Of a stretch of 64,000 nt of DNA, positions 28,300 through 49,364 are shown piece after piece; positions within the stretch are counted from its first letter, which is position 1; each line of letters begins with the position of its first letter. The position numbers were made by a program, and so were the translations under genes. The notes beneath the pieces are model-generated. The model ran no database searches. It was not told the DNA's origin and worked only from the letters and a program-made list of their open reading frames with translations. Source of the stretch: Anaspis maculata. Lineage: Eukaryota; Arthropoda; Insecta; Coleoptera; Scraptiidae. The DNA is taken from contig OX421966.1 in the NCBI GenBank assembly GCA_949128115.1, positions 2,542,001 through 2,606,000 on the forward strand, written 5' to 3'.

Positions 28300-31200
28300 G
28301 AAAATAATTTGGGATAAACCCTAGCATATTTTTTAAAGCGTTTTTAAAAACCTTTGCATATTTCTCTTGATATTTGAAAAAATCTGAGCATATTTCTCGA
28401 GATATTTCTCGACTGATTTTTGGAAATAAATAATAAATAAAGAATTTTTTTCAACTGATTTTTGAAAACTCTAGCATATTTCTCTTGGTACACATTTAAA
28501 AATCTCCAACTCTTGTCCCAATTTTTAAAAGCCTCAGCATACTTTCAATTGGATTTTCAAAATCCCTATAGCCTATTTCTCTTGATATTTCATAATTTTA
28601 GCATATTTTTCTTGATAATCAAAGAGTTTCAGGCAAAGTTCTAGCATATTATTCAATTGCTATCTGAAAACCCTAGCATATTTTCTATTGAATTTTCAGA
28701 AACCCTACCTTATTTCTTTTGACATTCCAGAAAGCATATTTTAGCATATTTTTCACTAAAATTTTGAAATTACTCGCATATTTTTTTTGACAATTAAACA
28801 GTTACAGCAAATATTTTTTTAATTTTCAAAAAACAGAGCATATTTCACTTGGTACTTCATTCAAAAAGCTTCAGCATACTTTTTCCAGTTTTTTTTTAAC
28901 TTAGCATATTTTCTATCAATGTTTATGAACTCTACCATATTTTACCCAATATTCAAAAATCTAGCTTTTTTTACTTGACTTTTGAAAACTCTAGCATAGT
29001 TCTCTTGATCACTCAAAAGCTTTGGTATATCTGTATCTAATTTTTAACCCTTGGCCTCGCCCTTGGAATATTTCTACTTGATTTTCGAAGCCCTAGAATG
29101 TGATATTATATTATATTGGAAAATATTCAGCATATCTTTTCTCAATTTTCAATAACTCTGGAATATTTTTTATATTCTTTGAAAAAATCTTAAAACATTT
29201 CTCCTTATTATATTTGAAAAAAGTTAATATATCATCGAGCATACTATCGAGCATATTACGAGGCATATTATTTGATTTTTGAAAACTCCAGCATATTTCT
29301 CTCGGTGATTAAGAAATACAGCGTATCTTATCATAACTTTTAAAAAACTCAAGCGTGTTCTCAATTAGATTTAAAAAAATCCTTGCATAACCATTTTGAT
29401 ATTTCGAAATTTTTTTGCATATTATTTACTTGATTTTTGGGAACCCTAGCGTATTTCTCTGGATTGAAAAGCTTCAGCATCTTTTTCTAATTTTTCAAAA
29501 CCCCAGCATATTTTTCATTAAATTTTATAAAGCCCTAGCATATTTCTGTTGATATTTAACAGACCTCCAGGATATCTTCTTTTGATAATTGAAAACCTTC
29601 ATCATATCTTTCCATAGTTCCTTTCGGTTTTCTGAAACCTCAGCGTATTTTCATTAGATTTTTAAAAACCCACATTTTTCGTGATAATTGGAAATTTGAA
29701 AATCTTAGCACATTTCTCACTTGACTTTTGAAAACCCTAGCATATTTTCTATCGGATTTTCAGAAACCCTACCATATTTCTCTTGCTATTTTAGAAAATC
29801 TCACCATATTTCTCTTGGTACATTTATTTCAAAAAATTCGGCTTATCTTGTCCTAATTTTGAAAAGCCTTAGCGTATGTTTTAGTGGATTTTCAGGAACC
29901 CTAGCATATTTCTCTTGATATTTCAAGAAAATCTTAGCACAGTTCTTACTTGACTTTTGAAAATCCTCGCATATTTTTTATCGGTCGATCCCTAATTTTG
30001 TGAAAATCTCGGTCGGCATCTTTTTTCATTGTTCAAAACTTGAGCATATTTTCTTGCATATATTTTTTTTTTGCAAAAATCTTTATATATTTTACACTTG
30101 ATTTTTCAAAGAACCTAGCACTCGATCTAGAATATATTTCTCTCGATTTTTGAAAACTTGAACTTATTTCTTTGGTTAATTTAAAAAAACCAGAGCATAT
30201 TCCTTTTTTCTAAATTATTTGATTGGTTTTTTTTAAACTCTAACATTTATCCTGGTTCTTGGAAACAGCATTTTTCTTTTGATTTTTTCAAACAAAAGCA
30301 TATTTTCAACTTGATTTCTAAAAACTTCAATATAACTATTTCCGAGCCTATTCCTCTTGGTTTCTAAAAACCTTTGGCGTATTTTTTCTCGATTTTTTCA
30401 AACCCTAGCATATTTCTTTTGATTTATGGAAACTCCACCATATTTTCCTGACAACTTGAAACTTCGACATATTTTTCTTGATTGTTTGATAATCTTAGTA
30501 GGTATTATGTATTCTTCACTGTTCAAAACTTGAGCATATTTTCCCGCATAATTTCTTCCTTTTTTCAAAAATCTTGACATATTTTTCACTTGATTTTTCG
30601 AAGAATCTAGCACCCGGCCTCCCGGCCTGCATAATTTTCTTGTTTCTTGTAAACCTGAGCCTCTTTTTTTCTAATTTTTGATAACTAGAGGATATTCCGT
30701 TCGGTTTTTTCAAACCTCAGCCTCGACCTCAGCGTATTTTTCCATCATTGCTGAAAATTTAGCATATTTTTTATTCATTTTGTTGAATACTTAGCATGTT
30801 TCTCTTGATATTAAAAGACTTGAGCATATTTTCCTTGCTATCTGAAAACCTTGGGCATATTTTTTCTTGTTTTTTCCAAACTTCAGCAGACTGTCACTTG
30901 ATTTTTAAAAAACCTAGCTTTTTTTCACCCTAGAATATGTAGTTAGTTTTTCAAAAACCAAAGCATGTTTTCACGATGTGAAAAACTTGAGCATATTTTT
31001 CACTACATTTCTGAAAATCCCAGCATGCTGCCAAGTTTTCATGACGGAACAAAGCTTATTGACTTACGTACTTACGACAAACTTGAACTCACATCAAGTG
31101 CATTTGTGGAACCTGAAGCCTGATTTGTATTCAATCCTGCGTTCCCAACGCGAGTTCCTGGAGAAACTAAAGCTCCATTCACATTACCCTTAGGGCTTGT

Positions 31201-32371
31201 GGTACGTGCTTTTGGCCTACTTGAAGCCTGGTTTACACTCTGTGCGGCGCCGCCAAGTTCCCACGAGGAAATAACAAAGCTTGAATTACAAGCAACTTGA
31301 CCCGCATCAAGTGTTTTTGTGACACCTAAAGCCTGATTTACACTCAGTCCAGCATCCCAGAATTCTATAGAAATATAAAGCTTCATTCACTTCACATAAT
31401 ACTTATTGCTCGTGGTATGCACGTTCTTCTATTTGATTTTTCTAGGTTTTTTGAAAACCTCAAGTTGGCTTTAGCATATTTTTACCTTGATTTTTCAAAA
31501 CTGCAACATTTTTTTCTCATTTTTTCCAACTATTGGCATATTTTACTTTTTTTTGAACATATTTTCTTGGTAATCAGAGAAACCCTAGCATATTTTTTGG
31601 TGAATATTCAAAAATCTTTTTTTCCCAATTTTCCTCGTAATTTTCAAAAACCCTGGCGTATTCGATTTTCAATAACCCTCGCATATTTCCCCTGATATTA
31701 AACAATTTTCCTTTTTAAGAAGTAAGAAAAAGCATATTTCTTACTTGCTCCCTTGGAACCCCCTGAATATTTTTCTTGATAATTGAAGTGCTTAAGGATA
31801 TTTTTTCCCTATTTCAAAAAACCCTAGCAAATTTTTTATTGCATTTTTGGGAACCCTGGCATATTTCTTTTGACATTTAAGTTTTTTTAGCATATTTCCG
31901 ACTTGATTTTGATAGCCCTAGCATATTTCTCTTGATGTTCGAGCAGCTTCAGCATATTTTCTCCTCATATTTGAAAACCCTAGCATGTTTTATGATAGAT
32001 TTTCAAAAACCCATCATTTTCGTGACGATTAATAAAAAAGAAACTTTGAATATATCTTACTTCGAGTCTTACTTGATTCTTGAAAACCTAGCATATTTCT
32101 CTTGATAGGTACATTGTTGCCAAACACTTGCGTATTTTTTATTAGATTTTTAACGACCTAGGCATATTTCTCTAGGTACTTGAAAAACCTCAGCGTATTA
32201 CTTGCTGGATTTTTTATTTCTCTTGATAATTCAAAAGCTTCAGCATATTTTTTTCTAATTTTCAAGAGCCTTGGCATATTTTTCATTCGATTTTTGGAAA
32301 CCCCAACATATTTTCTGTGATAATTAAGAAACCTTGGCATATATTTCTTATTCGATTTCTGAAAACTCTAG
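28300..32371 (+). repeat. CCTAGCATATTTCTCTTGATTTTTGAAAA minisatellite, main block
   Basis: Roughly 100 degenerate units of about 30-45 bp, each with AGCATATTT(T)CTCTTGA followed by TTTTTGAAAACC. It continues after the large transposon at 44,210-44,640 in the same phase and orientation. A non-repeat island sits at 31,060-31,400. Confidence 0.9.
31076..31364 (-). CDS. Candidate internal exon encoding short peptide repeats
   Basis: A minus-strand frame runs through three diverged ~105-bp repeats. The peptide carries NAGLNTNQASGSTNALD, AAQSVNQASSRPKA and AGLSVNQALGVTKTLDAG, an Ala/Gly/Ser/Asn-rich periodic pattern kept in frame despite nucleotide divergence. The frame ends exactly at GTAAGT (donor at 31,070-31,075), and a possible acceptor (TTTCTATAG) lies just upstream of 31,364. 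If real, it is an internal exon of a low-complexity, perhaps extracellular, protein whose introns consist of the surrounding minisatellite. No family is recognised and flanking exons were not found. Confidence 0.4.
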
Positions 32372-32379
32372 CATTTTTC
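32372..32379. repeat. Left target-site duplication (8 bp)
   Basis: CATTTTTC also occurs at 44,202-44,209. Removing the element and one copy rejoins the host as CTCTAGCATTTTTCTCTTGG, which fits the minisatellite consensus seen, for example, at 28,470. Confidence 0.75.
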
Positions 32380-32548
32380 GGGACTCCGTAAAATGCAGAA
32401 CGGTCTGCAATCTGCAGAATTCTGCAGAACGACAGAAAATTTCTCAAAAAATTGCCAGAGCTTGATGAAACTTCGCACTAACAACCAAAATGAATACACC
32501 ATATATATTTATACGTGTACTCCCCCTCCCCCCTTCCCCGTTCGTTCC
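32380..32548. repeat. Left terminal inverted block of the transposon
   Basis: Starts GGGACTCCG, then TAAAATGCAGAACGG. The right terminus read inwards starts GGGGAGCGAA, then the same TAAAATGCAGAACGG. The block includes a perfect 18-bp palindrome, TCTGCAGAATTCTGCAGA, at 32,411-32,428 (mirrored at 44,153-44,170), a natural candidate for transposase binding. Confidence 0.75.
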
Positions 32549-34491
32549 GCAGATTGCAGAATGGACATAAAATGCTGCAGACCAGGTCTTTAGAGTGGCA
32601 CTAGAAGATCGAAACTTGGCAGACGCAATCAGCCAGTGAACCCCCACATAACAGAGAAAACCGAATTCCGATACCTCCCCCCCTTTTCCGTTCTGCAGAT
32701 TGCAGAATGGACTTAAAATGCTGCAGACCAAGTCTTTAGAGTGGTACTAGAAGATCGAAACTTGGCAGACGCAATCAGCCAGTGATCCAACACATAACGA
32801 AGAAGACGGAATTCCGATACCTCCCCCCCTTTTCCGTTCTGCAGATTGCAGAATGGACATAAAATGCTGCAGACCAGGTCTTTAGAGTGGCACTAGAAGA
32901 TCGAAACTTGGCAGACACTATCAGCCAGTGATCCCACACATAACGAAGAAGACGTAATTCCGATACCTCCCCCCCTTTTCCGTTCTGCAGATTGCAGAAT
33001 GGACACAAAATGCTGCAGACCAGGTCTTTAGAGTGGCACTAGAAGATCGAAACTTGGCAAACGCAATCAGGCAGCGATCCCACACATAACGGAGAAGACG
33101 GAATTCCGATACCTCCCCCCCTTTTCCTTTCTGCAGATTGCAGAATGGACATAAAATGCTGCAGACCAGGTCTTTAGAGTGGCACTAGAAGATCGAAACT
33201 TGGCAGACACTATCAGCCAGTGATCCCACACATAACGAAGAAGACGGAATTCCGATACCTCCCCCCCTTTTCCTTTCTGCAGATTGCAGAATGGACATAA
33301 AATGCTGCAGACCAGGTCTTTAGAGTGGTACTAGAAGATCGAAACTTGGCAGACACAATCAGCCAGTGATCCCACACATAACGGAGAAGACGGAATTCCG
33401 ATACCTCCCCCCCCTTTTCCGTTCTGCAGATTGCAGAATGGACATAAAATGCTGCAGACCAGGTCTTTAGAGTGGCACTAGAAGATCGAAACTTGGCAGA
33501 CACTATCAGCCAGTGATCCCACACATAACGGAGAAGACGGAATTCCGATACCTCCCCCCCTTTTCCGTTCTGCAGATTGCAGAATGGACATAAAATGCTG
33601 CAGACCAGGTCTTTAGAGTGGCACTAGAAGATCGAAACTTGGCAGACACTATTAGCCAGTGATTCCACACATAACGAAGAAGACGGAATTCCGATACCTC
33701 CCCCCCTTTTCCTTTCTGCAGATTGCAGAATGGACATAAAATGCCGCAGACCAGGTCTTTAGAGTGGCACTAGAAGATCGAAACTTGGCAGACGCAATCA
33801 GCCAGTGAACCCACACATAACAGAGAGAACGGAATTCCGATACCTCCCCCCCTTTTCCGTTCTGCAGATTGCAGAATAGACATAAAATGCTGCAGACCAG
33901 GTCTTTAGAGTGGCACTAGAAGATCGAAACTTGGCAGACACTATCAGCCAGTGATCCCACACGTAACGAAGGAGACGGAATTCCGATACCTCCCCCCTTT
34001 TTCCGTTCTGCAGATTGCAGAATAGACATAAAATGCTGCAGACCAGGTCTTTGAAGTGGCACTAGAAGATCGAAACTTGGCAAACGCAATCAGGCAGCGA
34101 TCCCACACATAACGGAGCAGACGGAATTCCGATACCTCCCCCCCTTTTCCGTTCTGCAGATTGCAGAATGGCCATAAAATGCTGCAGACCAGGTCTTTAG
34201 AGTGGCACTAGAAGATCGAAACTTGGCAGACGCAATCAGCCAGTGAACCCACACATAACAGAGAGAACGGAATTCCGATACCTCCCCCCCTTTCCAGTTC
34301 TGCAGATTGCAGAATGGACATAAAATGCTGCAGACCAGGTCTTTAGAGTGGCACTAGAAAATCGAAACTTGGCAGACACAATCAGCCAGTGATCCCACAC
34401 ATAACGGAGAAGACGTAATTCCGATCCCTCCCCCCAATTTCCGTTCTGTAGATTGCAGAATGGACATAAAATGCTGCAGACCAGGTCTTAT
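32549..34491. repeat. Left terminal array, ~146-bp unit, 14 copies
   Basis: CAGATTGCAGAATGG recurs near 32,549, 32,693, 32,838, 32,984, 33,131, 33,276, 33,424, 33,570, 33,716, 33,862, 34,010, 34,155, 34,301 and 34,447. Units contain CTGCAGACCAGGTCTTTAGA, AGATCGAAACTTGGCAGAC and a C7-8 run (CCTCCCCCCC). Units are 95% or more alike. Frames of 77-103 codons across them are repeat artefacts. Confidence 0.92.
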
Positions 34492-34831
34492 ACCAGGTTA
34501 GATGAAGTGTTTATTGAGCATTTTGTGATTGAGCTACAGATCTCTTCAGTTGAACAATGTGGGTCGGAAGAAATACACATGACTGAGTTATAGCTAATGT
34601 TTATTCCTACTCAAATGAATTTCACTGACAAAAAAAGTATTATACATAATAAGTAGGTACCTACCGTAAGTTTTTTCTTGACATATGAGTGACCATTGTT
34701 TTCAAATTTCAGGTTCAAACAAGATGGGTATGAAAAATTTAGGTAGTTACTCAATTCATTCATCACTAGATACCAGATATCAACAAAAAAAAAAAATAGA
34801 AGAAGGACCGCATGAAAATCGATCGTCTGTT
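34492..34831 (-). other. 3' flank of left-arm gene with two poly(A) signals
   Basis: On the minus strand this follows the stop codon at 34,832 and contains AATAAA at 34,600-34,605 and 34,510-34,515. It differs from the right-arm equivalent at a few bases (for example an A12 versus T13 run, TATCTAG versus TATTTAG, GACATATG versus GCCATATG complement). Confidence 0.6.
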
Positions 34832-36068
34832 TCATTTCATGCAACTTTCGCAAGTGAAGTCGTCATCGTCGTCGACTTTTCCGTCAATACAGGAAATGTG
34901 GTACCAGTGGTCGCAGTCGCTGCAAAGAACCAGTTTTCCTCCGACATTAGTACACTTGTTTTTCATGAAACAGACAGATCCTGTGTCTTCGTCCCAATAC
35001 GATCCAATGATTCCGGTGAGGAAAGACGCCAGCCTTCCGTTGGTCATGTTCGGTGTCTCTAATTTAAGGTCGGTTATTGCGAGTGTTGGAAGAATCAACT
35101 TGGTTCCTGTCTTTTCTTCCGTCTTCTCTGGAAAATTGCTTTCGCTTCCTGCTGCCAGTGCCTTCAGTTTCTTTGCGATGATTTTCCTGTACGTCGTCAT
35201 GTCGTTAGTGTAATGCGAGCAGTCGTTCTGCGTGAGTAACATTTCGACATACATACAACAGAACATTCCGCAATCGTAACTGTTCTTCTGTTTAAGGTCA
35301 TGACGGGGATTCAAGAGAGTCCATTCATCTGGATGAAACGTCTTGCCTTCCATTTGCATGGACATTGCATACAGCTTGACCACAAATTCGATCTTCTCCT
35401 CTGGCAGATTGTTTCGGAACAAACTGTCGAGATGCACGAACGTCTTTTGCTTTCGAAGAATAAGCATGACAGTCCAATGACTGTGATCGAGAATCGGCAG
35501 AATCACGACATCTTTAAGTGAAACTTTATCGCGGGTAAAGTGATTGACTCCATTTTCCACAGCATCGCATCTACCCGGAAAATTCACATACACGCTTTCG
35601 ACTGGGAAAACGGTCACGGCCCGGCATCTGGCAGTGTTTTCAACACAAAGAGCCAAGAAATGAGCATCTAAAATTCCGTCGCTCAGGTAGAAATCCTTAG
35701 ACTTTGCTGGTGAATCAGGAACCAGTGTCTTCAAGTCGCTCTCTAGCACGACGCGTCCATGAACGTTGTAGTGATATTTGTGGCTTGTCGGCTGTAAAGG
35801 AGCGTCGTCATCGGAATCCTGATCACACAGGTCGATAGGGGAAGACAGACGATAGGCTTTCGTTGGTGTGGAAGTTTTCAGAGGGCCGATTTCGGACAAA
35901 TTCAACGACTCGTTCGTAGAGAAAGGATCAACAAATCTCTTCTTGACTACTCCTCCTTCAATTGTGGGCACCAACAAGGTTCTTTTTTCGTTTTTTTCTC
36001 TTGTGGTTATCGAGTCCTCGGCGGCCTCTACCACTTTAATGTTGGTGGGATCGCCTTTTCTTCCTGAT
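34832..36068 (-). CDS. Exon 2, left arm: Ulp1-type protease plus PHD finger
   Basis: This is the second exon of the left-arm gene. It adds 411 residues to the transposase. Residues 623-1,022 of the fusion are identical to the right-arm copy. The C48 (Ulp1/SENP-like) cysteine protease has its triad in the usual order: His808 (DHSHWTV), Asp825 (HLDSLF), Gln871 and Cys877 (NSYDCGMFCC). The C-terminal PHD finger has Cys977, Cys983, Cys993, Cys996 (CSDCDHWYHISC), His1001, Cys1004, Cys1017 and Cys1020. The first methionine in this exon falls between the catalytic His and Asp, so independent translation would destroy the protease; the exon must be reached by splicing. Likely roles, inferred, are removal of SUMO/Ub-like tags and chromatin reading during transposition. 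Confidence 0.88.
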
Positions 36069-36125
36069 CTGCAAATGTTTCATGGTTGACGTGTTCGTGG
36101 CTCATCATGGCATGATATGACTTAC
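36069..36125 (-). other. 57-nt intron of the left-arm gene
   Basis: On the minus strand it starts GTAAGT and ends TTTGCAG. Splicing joins TACAA to ATCAGG and continues in frame (K-S-G-R-K-G-D-P-T-N-I-K). Its length is a multiple of three, but TAA overlaps the donor, so retention stops translation after the transposase. Confidence 0.8.
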
Positions 36126-37957
36126 TTGTAACCCCGTTCACGCCTCATGACTGTGGACAACTTGGCAGTCTTATGTGGTATTTGTTTGTGACCAATGGCC
36201 AAGCGTGCAGCTTGTATGTGATAACAACCTCGTTTCACCCGGCAAGAACAAATCTCCTTTGGATGGAGAGATACGAGAAATTTATCATTTTCTCTTGATG
36301 CCACCAAAAACACGCCGTCCTCGGGCAGCAACTTCACACGTCCTTCTTGCACAACTTGCTTAGCCACGCTAAAGTTTGTGAAAGGCATTTCAGATGTCTT
36401 GATCATCTTGTGGTCGTTGTTGTGGAACACATATGGAATATCGTCTACATCAAATTGACTTTTAGGAAAAGCCATGCTCTCTATGTCCTTCTGCATGTGT
36501 GGATCGAGGAGCTTGAAATTGCCTTGATTGCAGAAACCACGTAACACTTCCTTTTGCGTGATAACATCGAGATGGTACAGGGAGAGAGCAAGAGCCTGTA
36601 ACTTGACTTCTTTGTTGTTTATGAATCGTTTTACCACCCTGTTCAAACTCTCGGCAGAATTGGTGGTGATGCCACTGCGCCGCTTGTAAATTCCATACAG
36701 CTCCAAGATCCACCTCGCCGAACTTAACATGTCTTTGCGAAGGTGTGCTTCGAAATACTCTTTGAACGGTTGGCTCCACCTTTTCGACATGTTGTTCAAT
36801 TTAAGTTCGAACTGTTCCTCGCTTCTGCTATCTAGCAAGTCCCAGATATGGCTGCTATATATTTTTAAATCTTCCGTGTCGACATTCTTCTGTCTTTTCA
36901 GCCACTGTTGGACGTCTTTAATTATATGGTTCCAGCAAAACACATGTTGGGCATTGGGGAACTGCTCTCTGATGGCGTGTATGATGGCTTTTTCTCTGTC
37001 CGTCACAATCGGGCATTGAAACAGAGCTTTGGAATAAGTTTTCAGCCATTTGAAGAAAACACCGTGTACTTCTTTGAATCTCTCATGATGTACGACATAG
37101 AACAACGGTATTGTCGGCCGTGTTTCAATATTGTTGTGAAAAAACAACGAGTGCTGGTATGAAAAGATTGAGAGATAAAAGTCCCCCAACAGAAAAGTTG
37201 TGTCGTATTGGACAACACATTTCCTTATTGCACAAGCTTCCTGAAATAGTTTGTGCGACTCCGGTCTAACCAGAATCGCAACAAAATGCGGCAGCAAATC
37301 CATCACATGGATGAAGTTTTTCAGTTCATCTTTTAAAACGTAGAGCCCGATTATATCATCAGAAGAAAGTAACTTTCTCTCCCTTTCTTTTATGATTGTA
37401 TTGCTCACTTGCGTTCTATCTCTGGGCAACAACACTGCCATCAGCGAAGGGTCTACGTCTTCTGTTGCCAACTTTTTATAAACTGCTTGTGGTTCTTCCT
37501 TCAATGCTTTTTTTTGTCTCTCGATCTGGGACTTTGCGGTTGTTATGTGTTCTTGTTGAAGGCATTTCCTTTTATTGCCGTGAGGCAAATGTTCGTAGTC
37601 TTCTGTTGATCCAACATAGTGCACTAGTGTTGTGCCGGCGTATATTTTTTTCTCATCTCCGGTATAAATAACATAAGCTCGCTTGTGAAAGTTCCGACAA
37701 GCTATCGACTTGAAATAATGACAGATCAAAATGGGATGGTTTTTGGGGATCAATTTAACTCCATAATGTCTCCATCGGTACTGGTCCACTTTCCAGTCTT
37801 CAAGGTTGGAACTTGTTATTATGAAAATCTCGCCAGGATTTGGCTTGACCGGCGGATATTTGGAACATTTTTCTTCGTCTTTATTGACGATCAGTTCAAA
37901 GTATTTGTCCGTCGACAACCAAAACTTTGATACGTTATACACTTTATTTGCCATCAT
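36126..37957 (-). CDS. Exon 1, left arm: MULE transposase (WRKY-like, DDE, SWIM)
   Basis: The product is identical to the right-arm copy. The start is ATGATGGC at 37,957; the open frame extends 17 codons further upstream but without an ATG. Domains in order: a WRKY/FLYWCH-like DNA-binding fold with DQYRWRHYG (58-66), Cys79, Cys87, His123 and His126; a DDE integrase core with Asp252 (QYDTTF), Asp320 (VTDREK) and Glu436 (NSAESLNR), plus the MULE-typical CWNH (341-344); and a SWIM zinc finger, Cys570-x-Cys572-x5-Cys578-x-His580. Transcription runs outwards, away from the central spacer. No frameshift or stop is present, so it is potentially active. Confidence 0.92.
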
Positions 37958-38363
37958 AAAGTTTAGTGGGAAAATGAAGTTGAGCACTCGTTGAGCTCTA
38001 TAGATCAAAAGTGAGGTTAAAAAGCTCCGTATTGCAATATTGCAACCCCTGCAGTGATAATAATTTTGTCGCTAACAGAAAGAGGATAATCACTGTACCT
38101 GATGCATCTATACCTACTATGTTGCTAACGCTGATGAAACCGACGAGTTGATGTTGAACTTTCTTTTTAGCGCGCTTTCATAATGGAAAAGGCGCTTCTA
38201 TCCGCGCTTTGTCCGTCCGTCCGTCACAGCATCTAGTACTAGGGAAATGAACTTTTCCGAAGAAAAAAAACGAACGTCAACGGGTAGCTTATACACTTAT
38301 TCTTCAACTCTTCAGACCCGAACCAAGAGAGATCTTCTTTCCATATCAATAAATGATGAAAAT

Positions 38364-38505
38364 TCTCGACATGTGGTGAGCTATAGGCACATGGCACAAA
38401 CTCGAAAACCGTTTATCCTGTTTCGAAAATTCTACAGCATACCTTTTCTATTCTGAGTTATTGAATTATTTCGTAGGTATCACAGCGTTTCATAGTATTG
38501 TTGAT
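38364..38505. other. Central 142-bp unpaired spacer (loop) of the palindrome
   Basis: Pairing between the arms ends after ATAAATGATGAAAAT on the left and resumes with ATTTTCATTATTTATTGAT on the right (one mismatch). The spacer has no internal symmetry that I can see. It separates two divergent genes, so it and the adjoining ~400 bp of each arm must contain any promoters. A single loop would be the hairpin turn if the element folds. Confidence 0.75.
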
Positions 38506-38641
38506 ATTTTCATTATTTATTGATATGGAAAAAAGATCTCTCTTGGTTCGGGTCTGAAGAGTTGAAGAATAAGTATAAGCTACCCGTTGACGTTCGTTTT
38601 TTTTCTTCGGAAAAGTTCATTTCCCTAGTACTAGATGCTGT

Positions 38642-38700
38642 GACGGACGGACGGACAAAGCGCGGATAGAAGCGCCTTTTCCATTATGAAAGCGCGCTAA
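38642..38700 (+). repeat. GGACGGACGGACAAAG...GAAGCGCC module in the transposon's inner flank
   Basis: A run of four GGAC units, then AAAGCG, AGAAGCGCCTTTTCC and GAAAGCGCGCT. A mirrored copy lies in the left arm at about 38,169-38,227. A clearly related module lies at 53,821-53,880, outside the element. Confidence 0.6.
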
Positions 38701-38909
38701 AAAGAAAGTTCAACATCAACTCGTCGGTTTCATCAGCGTTAGCAACATAGTAGGTATAGATGCATCAGGTACAGTGATTATCCTCTTTCTGTTAGCGACA
38801 AAATTATTATCACTGCAGGGGTTGCAATATTGCAATACGGAGCTTTTTAACCTCACTTTTGATCTATAGAGCTCAACGAGTGCTCAACTTCATTTTCCCA
38901 CTAAACTTT

Positions 38910-40741
38910 ATGATGGCAAATAAAGTGTATAACGTATCAAAGTTTTGGTTGTCGACGGACAAATACTTTGAACTGATCGTCAATAAAGACGAAGAAAAAT
39001 GTTCCAAATATCCGCCGGTCAAGCCAAATCCTGGCGAGATTTTCATAATAACAAGTTCCAACCTTGAAGACTGGAAAGTGGACCAGTACCGATGGAGACA
39101 TTATGGAGTTAAATTGATCCCCAAAAACCATCCCATTTTGATCTGTCATTATTTCAAGTCGATAGCTTGTCGGAACTTTCACAAGCGAGCTTATGTTATT
39201 TATACCGGAGATGAGAAAAAAATATACGCCGGCACAACACTAGTGCACTATGTTGGATCAACAGAAGACTACGAACATTTGCCTCACGGCAATAAAAGGA
39301 AATGCCTTCAACAAGAACACATAACAACCGCAAAGTCCCAGATCGAGAGACAAAAAAAAGCATTGAAGGAAGAACCACAAGCAGTTTATAAAAAGTTGGC
39401 AACAGAAGACGTAGACCCTTCGCTGATGGCAGTGTTGTTGCCCAGAGATAGAACGCAAGTGAGCAATACAATCATAAAAGAAAGGGAGAGAAAGTTACTT
39501 TCTTCTGATGATATAATCGGGCTCTACGTTTTAAAAGATGAACTGAAAAACTTCATCCATGTGATGGATTTGCTGCCGCATTTTGTTGCGATTCTGGTTA
39601 GACCGGAGTCGCACAAACTATTTCAGGAAGCTTGTGCAATAAGGAAATGTGTTGTCCAATACGACACAACTTTTCTGTTGGGGGACTTTTATCTCTCAAT
39701 CTTTTCATACCAGCACTCGTTGTTTTTTCACAACAATATTGAAACACGGCCGACAATACCGTTGTTCTATGTCGTACATCATGAGAGATTCAAAGAAGTA
39801 CACGGTGTTTTCTTCAAATGGCTGAAAACTTATTCCAAAGCTCTGTTTCAATGCCCGATTGTGACGGACAGAGAAAAAGCCATCATACACGCCATCAGAG
39901 AGCAGTTCCCCAATGCCCAACATGTGTTTTGCTGGAACCATATAATTAAAGACGTCCAACAGTGGCTGAAAAGACAGAAGAATGTCGACACGGAAGATTT
40001 AAAAATATATAGCAGCCATATCTGGGACTTGCTAGATAGCAGAAGCGAGGAACAGTTCGAACTTAAATTGAACAACATGTCGAAAAGGTGGAGCCAACCG
40101 TTCAAAGAGTATTTCGAAGCACACCTTCGCAAAGACATGTTAAGTTCGGCGAGGTGGATCTTGGAGCTGTATGGAATTTACAAGCGGCGCAGTGGCATCA
40201 CCACCAATTCTGCCGAGAGTTTGAACAGGGTGGTAAAACGATTCATAAACAACAAAGAAGTCAAGTTACAGGCTCTTGCTCTCTCCCTGTACCATCTCGA
40301 TGTTATCACGCAAAAGGAAGTGTTACGTGGTTTCTGCAATCAAGGCAATTTCAAGCTCCTCGATCCACACATGCAGAAGGACATAGAGAGCATGGCTTTT
40401 CCTAAAAGTCAATTTGATGTAGACGATATTCCATATGTGTTCCACAACAACGACCACAAGATGATCAAGACATCTGAAATGCCTTTCACAAACTTTAGCG
40501 TGGCTAAGCAAGTTGTGCAAGAAGGACGTGTGAAGTTGCTGCCCGAGGACGGCGTGTTTTTGGTGGCATCAAGAGAAAATGATAAATTTCTCGTATCTCT
40601 CCATCCAAAGGAGATTTGTTCTTGCCGGGTGAAACGAGGTTGTTATCACATACAAGCTGCACGCTTGGCCATTGGTCACAAACAAATACCACATAAGACT
40701 GCCAAGTTGTCCACAGTCATGAGGCGTGAACGGGGTTACAA
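38910..40741 (+). CDS. Exon 1, right arm: MULE transposase (WRKY-like, DDE, SWIM)
   Basis: This encodes 610 complete codons plus two bases of the next. The start chosen is ATG 38,910, with a second ATG directly after it; upstream in-frame sequence has no ATG. The N-terminus (55-126) matches the WRKY/FLYWCH zinc fold: WKVDQYRWRHYG, then Cys79/Cys87 and His123/His126. The catalytic core has Asp252, Asp320 and Glu436, with CWNH at 341-344 between the second Asp and the Glu, as in MULE transposases. SWIM zinc ligands are at 570, 572, 578 and 580 (ICSCRVKRGCYHI). It should bind the terminal repeats in the nucleus and cut and join DNA. If the intron is retained, translation ends at residue 611. Confidence 0.93.
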
Positions 40742-40798
40742 GTAAGTCATATCATGCCATGATGGGCCACGAACACGTCAACCATGAAACATTTGCAG
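40742..40798 (+). other. 57-nt intron of the right-arm gene
   Basis: GTAAGT at 40,742-40,747 and TTTGCAG ending at 40,798. Joining 40,741 to 40,799 keeps the frame. The TAA at 40,743-40,745, inside the donor, ends the unspliced reading frame. Confidence 0.82.
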
Positions 40799-42035
40799 AT
40801 CAGGAAGAAAAGGCGATCCCACCAACATTAAAGTGGTAGAGGCCGCCGAGGACTCGATAACCACAAGAGAAAAAAACGAAAAAAGAACCTTGTTGGTGCC
40901 CACAATTGAAGGAGGAGTAGTCAAGAAGAGATTTGTTGATCCTTTCTCTACGAACGAGTCGTTGAATTTGTCCGAAATCGGCCCTCTGAAAACTTCCACA
41001 CCAACGAAAGCCTATCGTCTGTCTTCCCCTATCGACCTGTGTGATCAGGATTCCGATGACGACGCTCCTTTACAGCCGACAAGCCACAAATATCACTACA
41101 ACGTTCATGGACGCGTCGTGCTAGAGAGCGACTTGAAGACACTGGTTCCTGATTCACCAGCAAAGTCTAAGGATTTCTACCTGAGCGACGGAATTTTAGA
41201 TGCTCATTTCTTGGCTCTTTGTGTTGAAAACACTGCCAGATGCCGGGCCGTGACCGTTTTCCCAGTCGAAAGCGTGTATGTGAATTTTCCGGGTAGATGC
41301 GATGCTGTGGAAAATGGAGTCAATCACTTTACCCGCGATAAAGTTTCACTTAAAGATGTCGTGATTCTGCCGATTCTCGATCACAGTCATTGGACTGTCA
41401 TGCTTATTCTTCGAAAGCAAAAGACGTTCGTGCATCTCGACAGTTTGTTCCGAAACAATCTGCCAGAGGAGAAGATCGAATTTGTGGTCAAGCTGTATGC
41501 AATGTCCATGCAAATGGAAGGCAAGACGTTTCATCCAGATGAATGGACTCTCTTGAATCCCCGTCATGACCTTAAACAGAAGAACAGTTACGATTGCGGA
41601 ATGTTCTGTTGTATGTATGTCGAAATGTTACTCACGCAGAACGACTGCTCGCATTACACTAACGACATGACGACGTACAGGAAAATCATCGCAAAGAAAC
41701 TGAAGGCACTGGCAGCAGGAAGCGAAAGCAATTTTCCAGAGAAGACGGAAGAAAAGACAGGAACCAAGTTGATTCTTCCAACACTCGCAATAACCGACCT
41801 TAAATTAGAGACACCGAACATGACCAACGGAAGGCTGGCGTCTTTCCTCACCGGAATCATTGGATCGTATTGGGACGAAGACACAGGATCTGTCTGTTTC
41901 ATGAAAAACAAGTGTACTAATGTCGGAGGAAAACTGGTTCTTTGCAGCGACTGCGACCACTGGTACCACATTTCCTGTATTGACGGAAAAGTCGACGACG
42001 ATGACGACTTCACTTGCGAAAGTTGCATGAAATGA
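40799..42035 (+). CDS. Exon 2, right arm: Ulp1-type protease plus PHD finger
   Basis: The exon continues the transposase frame with KSGRKGDPTNIK, then an acidic/Ser-rich linker of about 100 residues. The Ulp1 domain follows (about 735-890) with His808-Trp809, Asp825, Gln871 and Cys877, the complete catalytic set. After a second linker comes a compact PHD finger (977-1,020) with eight zinc ligands and the CSDCDHWYHISC signature; its first pair is spaced C-x5-C, not the usual C-x2-C. The stop is at 42,033. Ulp1-like domains are known in some plant MULEs (Kaonashi group). A covalent fusion to both transposase and PHD in an animal element is the notable point. The whole fusion is 1,022 residues. 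Confidence 0.88.
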
Positions 42036-42262
42036 AACAGACGATCGATTTTCATGCGGTCCTTCTTCTATTTTTTTTTTTTTGTTGATATCTGGTATTT
42101 AGTGATGAATGAATTGAGTAACTACCTAAATTTTTCATACCCATCTTGTTTGAACCTGAAATTTGAAAACAATGGTCACTCATATGCCAAGAAAAAACTT
42201 ACGGTAGGTACCTACTTATTATGTATAATACTTTTTTTGTCAGTGAAATTCATTTGAGTAGG

Positions 42263-42268
42263 AATAAA
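42263..42268 (+). promoter_or_regulatory. Poly(A) signal of the right-arm gene
   Basis: AATAAA lies 228 bp after the stop codon; a second AATAAA is at 42,353-42,358, just before the terminal array. Mirrored copies lie in the left arm. Confidence 0.5.
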
Positions 42269-42375
42269 CATTAGCTATAACTCAGTCATGTGTATTTCTT
42301 CCGACCCACATTGTTCAACTGAAGAGATCTGTAGCTCAATCACAAAATGCTCAATAAACACTTCATCTAACCTGG

Positions 42376-44030
42376 TATAAGACCTGGTCTGCAGCATTTT
42401 ATGTCCATTCTGCAATCTACAGAACGGAAATTGGGGGGAGGGATCGGAATTACGTCTTCTCCGTTATGTGTGGGATCACTGGCTGATTGTGTCTGCCAAG
42501 TTTCGATTTTCTAGTGCCACTCTAAAGACCTGGTCTGCAGCATTTTAAGTCCATTCTGCAATCTGCAGAACGGAAAAGGGGGGGAGGTATCGGAATTCGG
42601 TTTTCTCTGTTATGTGTGGGTTCACTGGCTGATTGCGTCTGCCAAGTTTCGATCTTCTAGTACCACTCTAAAGACCTGGTCTGCAGCATTTCAAGTCCAT
42701 TCTGCAATCTGCAGAACGGAAAAGGGGGGGAGGTATCGGAATTCGGTTTTCTCTGTTATATGTGGGTTCACTGGCTGATTGCGTCTGCCAAGTTTCGATC
42801 TTCTAGTACCACTCTAAAGACCTGGTCTGCAGCATTTTAAGTCCATTCTGCAATCTGCAGAACGGAAAAGGGGGGGAGGTATCGGAATTCGGTTTTCTCT
42901 GTTATGTGTGGGTTCACTGGCTGATTGCGTCTGCCAAGTTTCGATCTTCTAGTGCCACTCTAAAGACCTGATCTGCAGCATTTTATGGCCATTCTGCAAT
43001 CTGCAGAACGGAAAAGGGGGGGAGGTATCGGAATTCCGTCTTCTCCGTTATGTGTGGGATCGCTGCCTGATTGCGTTTGCCAAGTTTCGATCTTCTAGTG
43101 CCACTCTAAAGACCTGGTCTGCAGCATTTTATGTCCATTCTGCAATCTGCAGAACGGAAAAGGGGGGGAGGTATCGGAATTCGGTTTTCTCTGTTATGTG
43201 TGGGTTCACTGGCTGATTGCGTCTGCCAAGTTTCGATCTTCTAGTACCACTCTAAAGACCTGGTCTGCAGCATTTTAAGTCCATTCTGCAATCTGCAGAA
43301 CGGAAAAGGGGGGGAGGTATCGGAATTCGGTTTTCTCTGTTATGTGTGGGTTCACTGGCTGATTGCGTCTGCCAAGTTTCGATCTTCTAGTACCACACTA
43401 AAGACCTGGTCTGCAGCATTTTAAGTCCATTCTGCAATCTGCAGAACGGAAAAGGGGGGGAGGTATCGGAATTCGGTTTTCTCTGTTATGTGTGGGTTCA
43501 CTGGCTGATTGCGTCTGCCAAGTTTCGATCTTCTAGTACCACTCTAAAGACCTGGTCTGCAGCATTTTAAGTCCATTCTGCAATCTGCAGAACGGAAAAG
43601 GGGGGGAGGTATCGGAATTCGGTTTTCTCTGTTATGTGTGGGTTCACTGGCTGATTGCGTCTGCCAAGTTTCGATCTTCTAGTGCCACTCTAAAGACCTG
43701 GTCTGCAGCATTTTAAGTCCATTCTGCAATCTGCAGAACGGAAAAGGGGGGGAGGTATCGGAATTCGGTTTTCTCTGTTATGTGTGGGTTCACTGGCTGA
43801 TTGCGTCTGCCAAGTTTCGATCTTCTAGTACCACTCTAAAGACCTGGTCTGCAGCATTTTATGGCCATTCTGCAATCTGCAGAACGGAAAAGGGGGGGAG
43901 GTATCGGAATTCCGTTTTCTCCGTTATGTGTGGGATTGCTGCCTGATTGCGCTTACCAAGTTTCGATCTTCTAGTGCTACTCTAAAGACCTGGTCTGCAA
44001 CATTTTATGTCCTTTCTGCAGTCTGCAGTC
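42376..44030. repeat. Right terminal array, ~145-bp unit, 12 copies
   Basis: TCTGCAATCTGCAGAACGG recurs near 42,407, 42,552, 42,697, 42,842, 42,989, 43,134, 43,279, 43,425, 43,570, 43,715, 43,863 and 44,009. Units are the complement of the left array but form a different subset: most share GAATTCGGTTTTCTCTGTTA, whereas left units mostly carry the complement of GAATTCCGTCTTCTCCGTTA. The arrays have therefore homogenised separately while the arms between them stayed nearly identical. Confidence 0.92.
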
Positions 44031-44201
44031 TGCAGAACGAACGGGGAAGGGGGGAGGGGGGTACACGTATAAATATATATGGTGTATTCATTTTGGTTGT
44101 TAGTGCGAAGTTTCAGCAAGCTCTGGCAATTTTTTGAGAAATTTTTTGTCGTTCTGCAGAATTCTGCAGATTGCAGACCGTTCTGCATTTTATTCGCTCC
44201 C
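44031..44201. repeat. Right terminal inverted block of the transposon
   Basis: Complement of 32,380-32,548, including the 18-bp palindrome at 44,153-44,170 and the ATATATATGGTGTATTCATT segment. It ends CATTTTATTCGCTCCCC. A CTGCAGTCTGCAGTCTGCAG expansion near 44,018-44,035 is private to this end. Confidence 0.75.
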
Positions 44202-44209
44202 CATTTTTC
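44202..44209. repeat. Right target-site duplication (8 bp)
   Basis: CATTTTTC, identical to 32,372-32,379. The following TCTTGGCACATATTTGAAAA is ordinary minisatellite unit sequence. Confidence 0.75.
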
Positions 44210-44640
44210 TCTTGGCACATATTTGAAAAGCTCCCGCATATTCTTCCCTGGTTTTCAAAAGAAACCTAGTTTTTTTTTTAGATTTCAAAAACCCTAGCAA
44301 ATTTATTGTATGTACTTGATTTTTGAAAACAGTAGTATATTTTTCTTGATAATTAAAAAGCGCCTTTAAACACAAAAAAAGCCTCAGGGTATCCTTTCCT
44401 GATTTTCAAGAACTCTACTAGCACATTTTTCGTTGATTTTTTGAAGACCCTGGCACATTTTTCTTGATCTTCAAAAAGCCTTAGCAAATTTATTACTTGA
44501 TTCTTGGAAAACCTATAGCATGTTTCTCTTGGTACATTGTTTAAAAAGCCAGAGCAAGTGTTTTCTTGATTCTTAAAAACCTTGCCGAATTTCCTTTTTT
44601 GTTTCTTTCTCAATTTTAAAAGAGCCCAAAGCGTACCTAG
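44210..44640 (+). repeat. Continuation of the AGCATATTTCTCTTGA minisatellite
   Basis: Same units and orientation as 28,300-32,371, interrupted by the transposon. It fades out near 44,640. Confidence 0.85.
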
Positions 44641-46480
44641 AGTTTTCAACAAGAATAATTACTGTCGAGATTACTGTTACTTTTTCATAGATGAGTACTG
44701 GCTGCTTTGCACAGCAAATTTAACTTTATAAGGACAAATTGCTGGTAGGTATAATAATGGGTGTACCGTTAATATACAGTAGCTTAAAAACCATAAAAAA
44801 TCGAGTAAAGTACACGAGACAGGTGTATAACAGCCAGGTGATTAACCTAGAAAAATTGCTATACCTGAAGAAAAATCATCGTGTGAAGAAAATGAAAATT
44901 TCCTAATTATTTTCGGTACCTATGTACTTGATAACATTAAAAATATTGCTCTTAGTACTGTTTCAAATTTTCCATTGGAATAAGGTTATTGTTGATAACG
45001 AATCGCGTATCAATGTTGATATACTCGAATCCCCCTTGAACCAACCCTGAGGGCCTCACAAACCCACGTGTCCGAATATTTTCCTGATCTACTAACATAG
45101 ATTTTTTTATTTTTTTTTTCATTAATTTTTTATTTATTGATTTTTTTAGTAATTCCTAGTAACTGAATGAAGAAAAAAAATTGTTACCTACCTATCGTTT
45201 CAGTTCTTCAGTGCGTTGTGCGAAACCCAAGAATGGGAAAAGTCGACGGCGACCAGAAGAGGCGACACGAAGAAGACGAAGAAAAATAAGCAGGCCACAC
45301 AGTAGGTCTCTACGACGGCTGGTATGGTCTCTCGGGTTACTCTGCGATTTGCTCCAATAACTCCACTAAAAGATCACTCTACCAGAAACAATACACACTG
45401 GCGCGCGCGTTCTTTTGTTTTTTTTTCTTCTTCCGAATGTTAATCTGAGCACACCGGGCGAGAAAAAATCGAATCGTCTCTGTCGGAGAAAAATTGACGG
45501 TCGAGTCACGGCACACTGTTTTCTGTTGTTGTTGCACATACACACAACACACACGAGATCGTGATGTTGACACTAACGCAGCTCGCTAAAACGTAATCCA
45601 ATCCACTCGCGTCCGTGTCTGAGAACAAACTGGGGAAGAGTGGAAACGGAAACGCACGCCGGCATGTTATACCGATACCGACGGCACAACACGAGTAGTT
45701 GGCTTTGGAAACAGGTGCCGTAGGGGTGGGGGTGGGGATGGTGTAAGTTAAGGGTCGAGTCACTCGAGTCGAGTTGGCTGTGATGTTGCTTGACCCCTTC
45801 TGCTTTTCTACCGGCCACCCGAGAAAAAGCCTGGGGTAAGTCGGTAAGATCTAAAAGAGTATCTAAAGGTACAATCGAAGGTACAATAAAGTCAAGTTCT
45901 AAAGATGCTGAAGATATGGAGATGTAAGAGTTAGATCTGGAGGCAGGGCTGGGTGGTATTTCAAATACAAGTAGATATTTGACATTTTGACAAGTATTTT
46001 TATTTTATATTTTGGGATAAACTGCTCAACAATGGAAGTGTTACGAAGCAAAAATTCAACCAATTTTGAACCGCTGTAACTTTTGAATGGCACAAATGAT
46101 TCTGATTTTGTTTCAAATACTGGATAGCCCAATTTTTCGGCCATCTTTCTTGTCAATATGAAGTCCATAGAGTCCCTCATAAAATTTCTACAGAGAGATG
46201 AACAGAGCAGTGCAAAATTGATGAGAATTCAACATATCCCCGTTCTCGTAGAAAATCTTTTTCGGGAGTATTAACATCCAATTTATGAAGAATGATGTGT
46301 TCCCTCGAAACGGTTTTTGCATTTTCGGGATTCCGCTCGAAACAGCCAAAATGTGATTTTTTATTGTGAATACTGTACCTACCGGGTGATCATTTGAAAA
46401 CTATCCACCTGCAATAACTCCCAATTCCTAGTGAATATTTCTTCGAGAAAGAACATGTCGATTTTTATATCAAAGGGGAC
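44640..46480. other. Low-copy stretch, possible non-coding first exon
   Basis: 44,640-45,180 is AT-rich and featureless. 45,190-45,840 is GC-richer and non-repetitive, with a possible minus-strand donor at 45,191 (listed separately). An open frame at 45,899-46,180 (minus) has a plausible composition but no recognisable domain, and the sequence resembles dispersed-repeat DNA found next to CAGGGTG-type elements. Confidence 0.35.
45192..45600 (-). other. Candidate untranslated first exon
   Basis: On the minus strand a GC-rich, CpG-containing, non-repeat segment ends at GATAG/GTAGGTAA, a good donor followed by a long AT-rich stretch. It has no long frame. Its composition contrasts with the surrounding repeats. 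It could be the leader of a minus-strand gene whose introns hold the minisatellites and the transposon. This is inference only. Confidence 0.2.
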
Positions 46481-46487
46481 ATCTAAA

Positions 46488-46890
46488 ACATACACTGGCA
46501 AATTTCTATCTTCAGCCCCCTCGCCCCCACTCACCCCAACCTTGATTCACAACCCAACAAATTTCAAATGACACGACCTACCTTGCGATAATGCGATACA
46601 TCAAATTGAAGAGAACTGAATTTTCTTTCTGGAAAAAATATCTACAAAATTTTCAACCCCACCTTCCTTCTCCCTGAAAATTCTCTGACAGTCTTATTTT
46701 TAATTCTGGACCCCTCAATTCTTTTCAATTCAGTCAGTGTCATCATAGAAAACATCGAAGAAAAGAATTTTCGGTGGAAATCGTTCTACCCAAATTGACC
46801 CCTTTGCTCTCCCCCGCCTCAACTTCAAAATTTAACAAAACACCACCTATTTTGTGATACATCAAATTGAAGGAAATTAAATTCTTTTTC
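46488..46890 (-). repeat. Two diverged units related to the 59,280-62,690 array, opposite strand
   Basis: GATACATCAAATTGAAG occurs at about 46,600 and 46,855 with flanking CCCCCTCGCCCCCACTCACC and ACCCCTTTGCTCTCCCCC. The complement matches the array unit (TTCAATTTGATGTATCAC plus GGGTGGGTGGGGCAAAAGGG). It lies directly upstream of the microsatellite. Confidence 0.6.
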
Positions 46891-47108: not shown

Positions 47109-49364
47109 ATGAGGAAGTGTCTGAGAGTGTGCAAGAAAAAACTGTTCGATGCTGGCTCTGTAGGAGAATATTTGTCCTCAAAATCCATTTATAAAAATAC
47201 TTTGAAGCAGAAGAAATTATTATACTTGAAAAATGAATTGGAAGCCCTGAGTAATTCGAGAGATGCTGTCACTTTTTGGAGTACGCTCCGAAAATACCGT
47301 GGCAATACACGTGTCTCATGCCCACTTTCAGCACAGATTTGGGAGAACTATTTTCAAAATTTCTATCCATCGCGGCTGATCTCCAATGAGGAATTTTTTG
47401 ACGCGGTGCATCCTTATTTAGACAGCCCAATTTCACTAGACGAGTTAAAGTGTAGCCTTGCTCATTCTAAGAACAACAAGGCACCGGGAAGTGACATCAT
47501 TCCAAACGAGTTTTATAAGGCTCTCCCAGATAACTGGTTAACATATTTGAATACACTTTTTAACAGAATAATTCTGGAAGAAGTAACGCCCGTTAAATGG
47601 TCCGAAATAATATTAACTATGGTTCATAAAAAGGGCTCACCGGACGACCCAGCTAATTACCGCGGAATTGCACTGATTAACACCGTCATGAAACTCTTCA
47701 CCACTACTATTTTGAGACGACTAGCACTATGGTCGGAGGAATGTCAAGTCATTCCGGAAAGTCAGTCTGGCTTCCGGAGTGGCCGCGGTTGTATAGATAA
47801 TATTTTTGTCCTGACATCAGTTATCGGCTTGATATTACGACTGGAACACTCAAAGACTTACGCAATCTTTGTAGATTTCCGACGAGCGTTTGATTCCGTT
47901 AATCATACCCTACTATGGCGTAAGCTTTATATCCACGGACTTAGCGGTAAATTGATCAGGATCTTCAGGCAACTTTATGACAGATGTTATATGAGAGTGA
48001 GGACTGGGGGTTCATTTACAGGGAGCTTCGAAGTAACGGAGGGAGTGCTGCAAGGCGAGACTCTCAGTCCGCTACTATTTGCCATTTTTTTAGCTGACAT
48101 CGAAACGTTTTTCAGGAAGAGGGGTGTTAGAGGACTCAATGTGGATGGGAAGGTCGATGTTCTGATGCTTTTATATGCAGATGATCTTGTCATACTAGGG
48201 GATTCACCGGTAGACATCCAACGGAAGATTAAAATACTGGGTCAATACTGCGCTCAAAACTTTCTGGAAATCAATGCCGATAAGACAAAGGTAATGGAGT
48301 TCTCGAAAGGTGGTAGGGGAGGAAAATACACGTTCGAATATAACGATTCAAATATTGAAATAGTGAGAAGCTACCGATACCTAGGAATCACATTTACAAA
48401 AACCTTATCGTTTCTTGAAACCTGCAGTCATTCGATGACAAGTGCAAAGAGGGCTATAGGCGCTGTGTTCTCAATTCTGGCTAAGGGGAGAGTAAACGCA
48501 TGGGAAAGTCGAATGAAGCTATTTAACTCGATAATACTGAGCACGCTTATGTATGGAGTGGCTATTTGGGGAATTAAATACCTGGATGTCATAGAAAAAA
48601 TACAGGTCGGTTTTTTTAAGAAATTACTAGCGCTGCCGAAAAACACATCCAGCTCCCTCGTTAGGCTTGAGTGTGGGCTGCTTCCTCTACGCCATACTGT
48701 GCTGCGGCTTTGCTTTTCGTGGCTGAATAAACTTCATACTATGGATGATACACGCTTGCCAAAACTTTGCTACCTTAGGTTGCACTCTCTTGCCGACTGC
48801 ATGGATGAGAAGCATAACTTGGTAAGACAGATGAGACGATTGTTTGGGGAGGCTGGTTTTGATGGTGGTCCGACACCCGGGGAATACTTCTCGGGGAACC
48901 AAAGAACACGGATTTTAGATGACTTTGCTGAGATTTTGCACACGAAAGACCTTGCCAATGTGAGGACGTCCGCTTCAACTAACTTTATTCTTAAGGAAGA
49001 CCATTTCAGGCGGGGTCTCCCCCGAACTTACCTAACCTTAAGTAATGCAATAAGTACAACCAGATTGATAGCACAGGTAAGACTGCACAACAACTTTAGT
49101 CTGAGGTTCGTTGAGGGGGGCAAATGCCATAGGATCATCCCGGGGGACGTGTGTAGCCTCTGCAACCTAAATGAGCCTGAAACGTTAGAACACATGTTTT
49201 TTAGATGCCCCCTTTATCGCAGCGTGAGAGGGTCAAGGATCCCGAATCGGGTCGAAAGCTTTAGGGCGTTCATGCAAAGTCTGAGTGACGGTGATCAAGC
49301 TTCTAATTTAGCTAAATTTGTGTCAGGTGTTCTGAAAATTAGAGCTTTTGTATTCAACGAATAA
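47109..49364 (+). CDS. Reverse transcriptase of a non-LTR retrotransposon (EN-less)
   Basis: This 751-codon frame from ATG 47,109 copies RNA into DNA at the nicked target in complete elements. It shows the linker (1-110), finger motif HKKGSPDDPANYRGIALI (173-190), SQSGFRSGRGCIDNIF (218-233), motif A FVDFRRAFD (Asp256), motif B LQGETLSPLLF (314-324), catalytic YADD (356-359), thumb, and a C-terminal CCHC zinc knuckle, Cys682-x2-Cys685-x9-His695-x4-Cys700 (CSLCNLNEPETLEHMFFRC). No stop or frameshift interrupts it, so insertion is recent or the sequence is constrained. There is no endonuclease or RNase H. It belongs to the Jockey/I/R1-like group in a broad sense; the clade is not resolved. It is unlikely to move by itself. 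Confidence 0.93.
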   Translation: MRKCLRVCKKKLFDAGSVGEYLSSKSIYKNTLKQKKLLYLKNELEALSNSRDAVTFWSTLRKYRGNTRVSCPLSAQIWENYFQNFYPSRLISNEEFFDAVHPYLDSPISLDELKCSLAHSKNNKAPGSDIIPNEFYKALPDNWLTYLNTLFNRIILEEVTPVKWSEIILTMVHKKGSPDDPANYRGIALINTVMKLFTTTILRRLALWSEECQVIPESQSGFRSGRGCIDNIFVLTSVIGLILRLEHSKTYAIFVDFRRAFDSVNHTLLWRKLYIHGLSGKLIRIFRQLYDRCYMRVRTGGSFTGSFEVTEGVLQGETLSPLLFAIFLADIETFFRKRGVRGLNVDGKVDVLMLLYADDLVILGDSPVDIQRKIKILGQYCAQNFLEINADKTKVMEFSKGGRGGKYTFEYNDSNIEIVRSYRYLGITFTKTLSFLETCSHSMTSAKRAIGAVFSILAKGRVNAWESRMKLFNSIILSTLMYGVAIWGIKYLDVIEKIQVGFFKKLLALPKNTSSSLVRLECGLLPLRHTVLRLCFSWLNKLHTMDDTRLPKLCYLRLHSLADCMDEKHNLVRQMRRLFGEAGFDGGPTPGEYFSGNQRTRILDDFAEILHTKDLANVRTSASTNFILKEDHFRRGLPRTYLTLSNAISTTRLIAQVRLHNNFSLRFVEGGKCHRIIPGDVCSLCNLNEPETLEHMFFRCPLYRSVRGSRIPNRVESFRAFMQSLSDGDQASNLAKFVSGVLKIRAFVFNE

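Follow-up and report, generated by a model that had tools for sequence, protein, structure and literature searches.

Introduction

By their described features, Rehavkus and Phantom Mutator-like elements (MULEs) appear to be the closest known systems to a palindromic transposon of the beetle Anaspis maculata, which occupies positions 32380..44201 (11,822 bp) of the 64,000-nucleotide stretch analysed here (assembly GCA_949128115.1, contig OX421966.1, positions 2,542,001 to 2,606,000 of the forward strand). This whole stretch is called the window, and positions given without a contig number refer to it; published systems are compared as described in the sections of the papers cited. Rehavkus elements have a plant homeodomain (PHD) finger, a minisatellite before the 3' terminal inverted repeat (TIR) and 9-bp target-site duplications (PMC6446971), and Rehavkus-1_TC of Tribolium, of 9.5 kb, has inverted termini with a 164-bp repeat that is mostly present as five and eight units (PMC10218199). 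The element shares with Rehavkus a MULE-related DDE transposase, the PHD finger and the minisatellite before the 3' TIR, present here as 146-bp arrays at both ends, but differs in its 8-bp duplication, in carrying the gene twice in inverted arms and in its 142-bp spacer. Given that the duplications are 8 bp in both elements examined, it is called Rehavkus-like and is not filed as a member. Phantom elements have duplications of 8-10 bp, a SWIM finger, another such as FLYWCH or none and, in aphids, a minisatellite after the transposase open reading frame (ORF), and their hosts include crustaceans and tunicates (PMC6446971). The 8-bp duplication falls within this range and two named homologues come from these host groups; however, a PHD finger and Ulp1 are absent from the Phantom row of the published table, and the cited sections do not mention a gene-bearing palindrome. 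The element is probably an autonomous Foldback-like MULE whose TIRs were extended inward over the whole transposase gene, with one origin, transposition as a palindrome, and gene conversion and crossover between its arms.

Other described systems share parts of this architecture. A 2026 survey of arthropod MULEs gives lengths of 1.4-10.0 kb, a central transposase and TIRs of 13-1,193 bp (PMC13359780); the MULE DDE domain and TIRs are common to both, but the present element measures 11.8 kb and its arms, of about 5.8 kb, have the gene inside them. In the Tm1 Mutator/Foldback elements of root-knot nematodes, composite TIRs of Foldback-like type occur together with a MULE transposase that is Phantom-like (PMC3169594), but the duplications are of 9 bp, and the cited description names no palindrome that holds a transposase. 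A precedent for the formation of the present structure is found in Galileo, a Foldback-like element of the P superfamily, in which long, internally repetitive TIRs recruit neighbouring internal sequence in inverted orientation to give TIR1-F1-F1-TIR2, and for which recombination between copies and arms has been proposed (PMC3573991). Nevertheless, Galileo has a P-type transposase and the parts described as recruited lie beside the TIR and do not amount to a whole transposase gene. In yeast, fold-back inversions mediated by hairpins have been reported (PMC7467729), and KolobokP shares an unusual duplicated architecture for a DNA transposon, with direct rather than inverted repeats at its ends and proteins encoded once, internally (PMC9587614). 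The literature searched, that outside the subscription literature and Repbase, yielded no eukaryotic DNA transposon with a whole transposase gene in both arms. In bacteria, the composite transposons Tn10 and Tn5 have transposase genes in inverted insertion sequence (IS) arms, with cargo between separable IS elements; here, in contrast, there is a 142-bp spacer and the ends are unlike.

Structure and ends of the element

The palindrome is real. The first-pass annotation had described about 11.8 kb of palindrome with a 142-bp spacer and ends at 32380 and 44201, and the exact ends are confirmed by the 8-bp sequence CATTTTTC that lies directly outside both, at 32372..32379 and 44202..44209. Inverted arms at 34785-38294 and 38573-42082 are 3,510 nt long and 100% identical (rounded) with 278 nt between them, and aligning the imperfect inner part extends them to 38363 and 38506, leaving a spacer of 142 bp (38364..38505). 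In the alignment of the inner arms (3,969 columns), 10 columns are not identical, 5 of them substitutions and 5 gaps: two substitutions no more than 28 bp from the spacer, a 2-bp indel, three other substitutions, a 1-bp indel, and two gap columns that are the ends of the aligned slices. Outward, near-identity reaches 169 bp into the terminal arrays (to 34321), and farther out the 146-bp units differ.

From left to right, the element consists of the 5' tip GGGACTCCG with its subterminal region (32380..32542, plus strand), the 5' array of 13.3 copies (32543..34489, plus), the unique part of the left arm, an inverted copy of the right arm (34490..38363, minus), the spacer, the unique part of the right arm (38506..42378, plus), the 3' array of 11.3 copies (42379..44028, minus), and the 3' subterminal region with the tip GGGAGCGAA (44029..44201, minus). 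It thereby has the long inverted repeats built of tandem units that characterise Foldback elements. The two arrays are unlike unit by unit and, since units pair neither between arms nor between copies, they were dropped as a means of assigning arms. The innermost array unit was considered as a special 3' unit and rejected, its 30 mismatches having come from a slice that reached about 28 bp into unique DNA.

The insertion sits in satellite DNA. When its flanks are joined they agree, at 45 of 51 bases across the join, with satellite sequence nearby that is taken as the empty site. As a control, 8-mers were compared between the 300-bp flanks, and 33 of 85,849 position pairs were identical; an exact 8-mer at one given place is an event of about 4 in 10,000, with the empty-site match not counted. 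A nonautonomous relative, na1 (C1:3322427-3325566; contigs of the assembly are numbered C1, C2 and so on), has the same 5' tip, a 3' tip that differs by one base and its own 8-bp duplication, CCATAGAT, so that both elements fall within the 8-11 bp or so expected of MULEs.

The two ends of the palindromic element are not alike: GGGACTCCG is of the family's 5' type, also found in na1 and, in a decayed copy on C3, on the N-terminal side of the transposase, and GGGAGCGAA is of the 3' type, shared with a copy on C2. Among the matches listed, 40 of 85 candidates were scored and 48 end rows were used, of which 36 start at query base 1 (read as 5' type) and 12 at base 10 (3' type). Twenty-two of these rows form 11 pairs, and all 11 pairs carry one end of each type; the other 26 have no listed partner (25 of 5' type, including that of the palindromic element, and one of 3' type). 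Within 30001-46500, no tip was found at up to 2 mismatches besides the two ends, and none at the centre. A 5' tip of the family at one end and a 3' tip at the other mark this as a single element in which an arm has been duplicated internally, the palindrome lying inside it, and not as two elements joined. The inverted repeats therefore probably grew inward over the whole gene.

The transposase gene

Each arm holds two ORFs which, joined by a predicted 57-bp GT-AG intron, give an outward-directed gene of 1,022 aa. Exon 1, with a CG-1-like domain, the MULE DDE domain and a SWIM-like motif, lies at 36126..37957 (minus) and 38910..40741 (plus), and exon 2, with a Ulp1/C48 protease and the PHD finger, at 34832..36068 (minus) and 40799..42035 (plus). 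The intron in the right arm (40742..40798, plus) reads GTAAGT...TTGCAG, and splicing is likely from the frame, the splice signals and a homologue, P0002, that reads through the same join. The left and right coding sequences differ at none of 3,069 bases and both frames are apparently intact.

The assignment to MULEs comes from a match to PF10551 (E=9.5e-10) and from the triad D252, D320 and E436, examined with the homologues aligned. The PHD finger matches PF00628 above cutoff (E=6.2e-6), and the His, Asp and Cys motifs of Ulp1 are present; these residues and the triad are those we take to be catalytic. A sequence search of the PDB with exon 2 found Ulp1/SENP proteases (best E 1.1e-7), and the same search with the transposase part gave one meaningless match (E 0.54). 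NCBIfam gave nothing beyond a weak IS256 match below its cutoff, and a protein search with exon 2 gave no significant match among 3,524 candidates. A CxC...CxH motif at residue 570, presumably of SWIM type, occurs in the same protein as the PHD finger. At its N-terminus the transposase has an above-cutoff match to PF03859, the CG-1 DNA-binding domain (E=6e-8; residues 27-132 of ORF 38859-40745), and P0002 also bears the CG-1 family label. CG-1 is known from CAMTA transcription factors, and none of the titles listed in a literature search pointed to a link between CG-1 or CAMTA and a MULE transposase. Another homologue, P0003 (1,034 aa), combines the MULE, Ulp1 and PHD families in one protein.

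The first-pass annotation was right that the arms bear genes and are not made of repeats alone, and that each has a complete MULE transposase gene transcribed outwards, although the gene, with its two exons, is larger than had been thought. It had also suggested double-stranded RNA from read-through of the centre. This is less likely than suggested and would not be an automatic product, because the genes point apart and would give same-sense RNA, so that a hairpin would need transcription entering through the centre.

Related copies in the genome

In the 758-Mb, 50-contig assembly, a search with the first ORF gave 33 matches, three of which span the full 628 aa with no stop: both arms of the palindromic element and one locus on C2. 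The C2 gene is intact (1,022 aa) and differs at 17 bases, with nonsynonymous and synonymous divergences (dN and dS) of 0.0041 and 0.0111. This copy is also palindromic, round the same 142-bp spacer and with the same junction, and its arms are 99.7% alike over 631 bp; the left arm is cut short at 6601397 and the right arm is complete to the 3' tip. A query with the centre (38240-38640) found one other close match in the genome, at C2:6601896-6602288 (97%, minus strand), and two further weak loci (71% and 68%). As the gene arm and 3' tip of the C2 copy are on the plus strand and its centre on the minus strand, the spacer is flipped relative to the 3' tip.

The left flank of the palindromic element does not match the flanks of the C2 copy, and the right flank shares with both C2 flanks dispersed repeats (67-89%) in both orientations, none nearer than 1.8 kb. 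Given that no homology adjoins the two insertions and that the distant repeats lie in both orientations, the two loci are not a segmental duplication. Recurrence of the form with the same spacer and different flanks had been proposed as the sign of mobility, and the C2 palindrome, with no shared adjoining DNA, provides it.

When the 3' third of the arm was used as a query, 39 matches were obtained, of which 24 begin at the same base, 41727, and have no opposite-strand partner in that match list. This common start suggests that one deletion derivative has multiplied, the 41727 junction having been read in na1 alone. Three further loci, C1:2582692, C2:115979521 and C9:20718855, have adjoining opposite-strand matches and look palindromic. 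At the second of these (L057), a nonautonomous copy, the junction switches from 41655 minus to 41818 plus round a 163-bp single-copy loop, with arms 97.8% alike over 181 bp; it may have arisen by a further, separate formation of a palindrome or from the palindromic element by loss of its centre. The C3 copy is decayed and has a single broken transposase without a Ulp1 match, with its 5' tip and array adjoining the transposase N-terminus. It had been stated that a sole palindromic locus among conventional monomers would refute the interpretation. That case does not hold, given the centre shared with C2, the three opposite-strand loci and the one junction read; the 24 matches without a partner speak against the palindrome as the usual form.

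Nine groups of distant relatives were found, eight with fragmentary protein matches and one (C2:92231001) with none at E<=1e-3, and no intact one-gene copy occurs among them. A scan of viral contigs gave 58 pattern matches and no relative. Nonautonomous relatives with the same ends are probably mobilised by this transposase as well. At two loci of a distant related family (C1:7764708-7767650 and C4:8773086-8774192), fragments of the transposase and of Ulp1 are arranged head to head on opposite strands, possibly as a relic of an older, centrally deleted palindrome or as a plain inversion.

Origin and maintenance of the palindrome

Alignment of the four arms of the two copies over the inner 637 columns gave 18 variable columns. 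In thirteen of these (10 substitutions and one indel of 3 bp) the two arms of each copy agree and the copies differ from each other, in two (columns 10 and 28, counted from the spacer) the left arm of the window's element goes with the right arm on C2, and three are gaps private to one arm of the element at 32380-44201. Had the arms diverged as the copies did, about 30 substitutions would be expected in 3.97 kb; beyond the two near-centre sites, 3 are observed (Poisson, 5e-10). As the arms stayed alike while the copies diverged, it appears that arm-to-arm gene conversion keeps both genes alike.

Two members of a separate repeat family, L054 (C5:78650084) and L055 (C4:82212350), are 88-96% alike in their five longest aligned pieces. 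They share about 230 bp with the palindrome's centre and the sequence upstream of its gene, at a similarity of about 70%, and neither has a transposase match. Their BLAST match, 38470-38703, takes in the final 36 bp of the spacer and some 200 bp of right arm, both in single copy; the remaining spacer sequence aligns weakly, and at both near-centre sites their bases are those of the right arm. No matching inverted repeat was found at that place in either, and L054 has palindromic stretches elsewhere (670-794, 960-1143 and 1903-2043). Because this related repeat is single-copy, continuous with the spacer end and carries the right-arm bases, the left junction would be derived, and the left and right arms would be the derived and ancestral sides respectively. 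Both derived bases are shared by the C2 copy and, given a derived left junction, the palindrome is most simply explained as having formed once, before the copies parted. Between the two copies the spacer is reversed with respect to the 3' tip, which points to a crossover between arms, or between arrays.

Extension of the TIRs over the gene could have begun with a broken or nicked strand near 38364 that folded back and primed on 38506. Synthesis from there would have run outward through the gene arm as far as the 3' array, and the strand would have rejoined the homologous 5' array in inverted orientation. The 5' tip would thereby be retained, together with most of the 5' array, and the 142-bp spacer created. 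The palindrome would then have transposed as a palindrome, with gene conversion and crossover between its arms to follow.

The first-pass annotation had proposed that the structure moves as a dimer. Two whole elements joined head to head would account for the two full genes and two arrays; however, two joined 3' halves predict two 3' tips and the left end bears the 5' tip. Neither the tip pairing of the relatives nor the tipless centre suits this model and, given one 5' and one 3' tip in place of two separable elements each with both ends, it is highly improbable. An assembly artefact, from a fold-back read or a mis-join, would produce nearly identical arms and is just as hard to credit, given that the arrays differ in copy number and sequence, that an exact duplication bounds the element, and that the same centre recurs on another contig, flipped and with its own differences. 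A less remote but still unlikely scenario is that palindromes formed independently in the two copies, by fold-back at a short imperfect inverted repeat round the spacer of one-gene elements, with no need for conversion. The agreement of both arms within each copy would be expected from this, and L057, with its different centre, indicates that formation may recur, unless it is a deletion derivative. Against it stand the lack of such an inverted repeat at that place in L054 and L055, the two derived bases on the derived arm in both copies and the differing orientation of the spacer.

Several points also weigh against a single origin by TIR extension followed by conversion. This centre is shared by two loci alone, one of them truncated, so that the case for conversion is built on one complete palindrome and a partial one, and most of the related copies listed are not palindromic (the 24 of 39 matches described above). 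Among the relatives found, none combines the spacer with a single intact gene, and the outgroup, L054 and L055, is about 70% alike, its BLAST match covering 36 of the 142 spacer bases. The flip could also arise from crossover between the terminal arrays, and an assembler could make identical arms slightly too alike.

The usual fate of a DNA transposon is inactivation by mutation of its single transposase gene. It is conceivable, if rather doubtful, that the palindrome is a working, selected form in which mirrored transposase copies repair each other, escape the decay of a one-gene element and transpose as a palindrome. If so, the transposon would carry its own repair template, in the form of a mobile palindrome whose two gene copies remain identical. 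Arm-to-arm repair has been proposed for Y-chromosome palindromes, and the idea would become testable in small, movable units. The element, moreover, probably shows TIR extension that has reached a whole gene, and palindromic autonomous copies, deletion derivatives and palindromic derivatives form a natural series for studying how large eukaryotic palindromes form and survive.

Surrounding DNA

The transposon lies beyond a tandem satellite at window positions 44-12024, with units of about 810 bp that are about 93-95% alike, and beyond other satellite-like DNA. A second tandem array, at 60146-62603, has 236/481-bp units and a strong excess of G over C. Between the transposon and this array, a 751-aa ORF at 47109-49364 encodes a reverse transcriptase (PF00078), probably of a long interspersed nuclear element; its best named match is from Lygus hesperus, and the other names visible among 113 proteins (E <= 1e-100) are those of arthropods.

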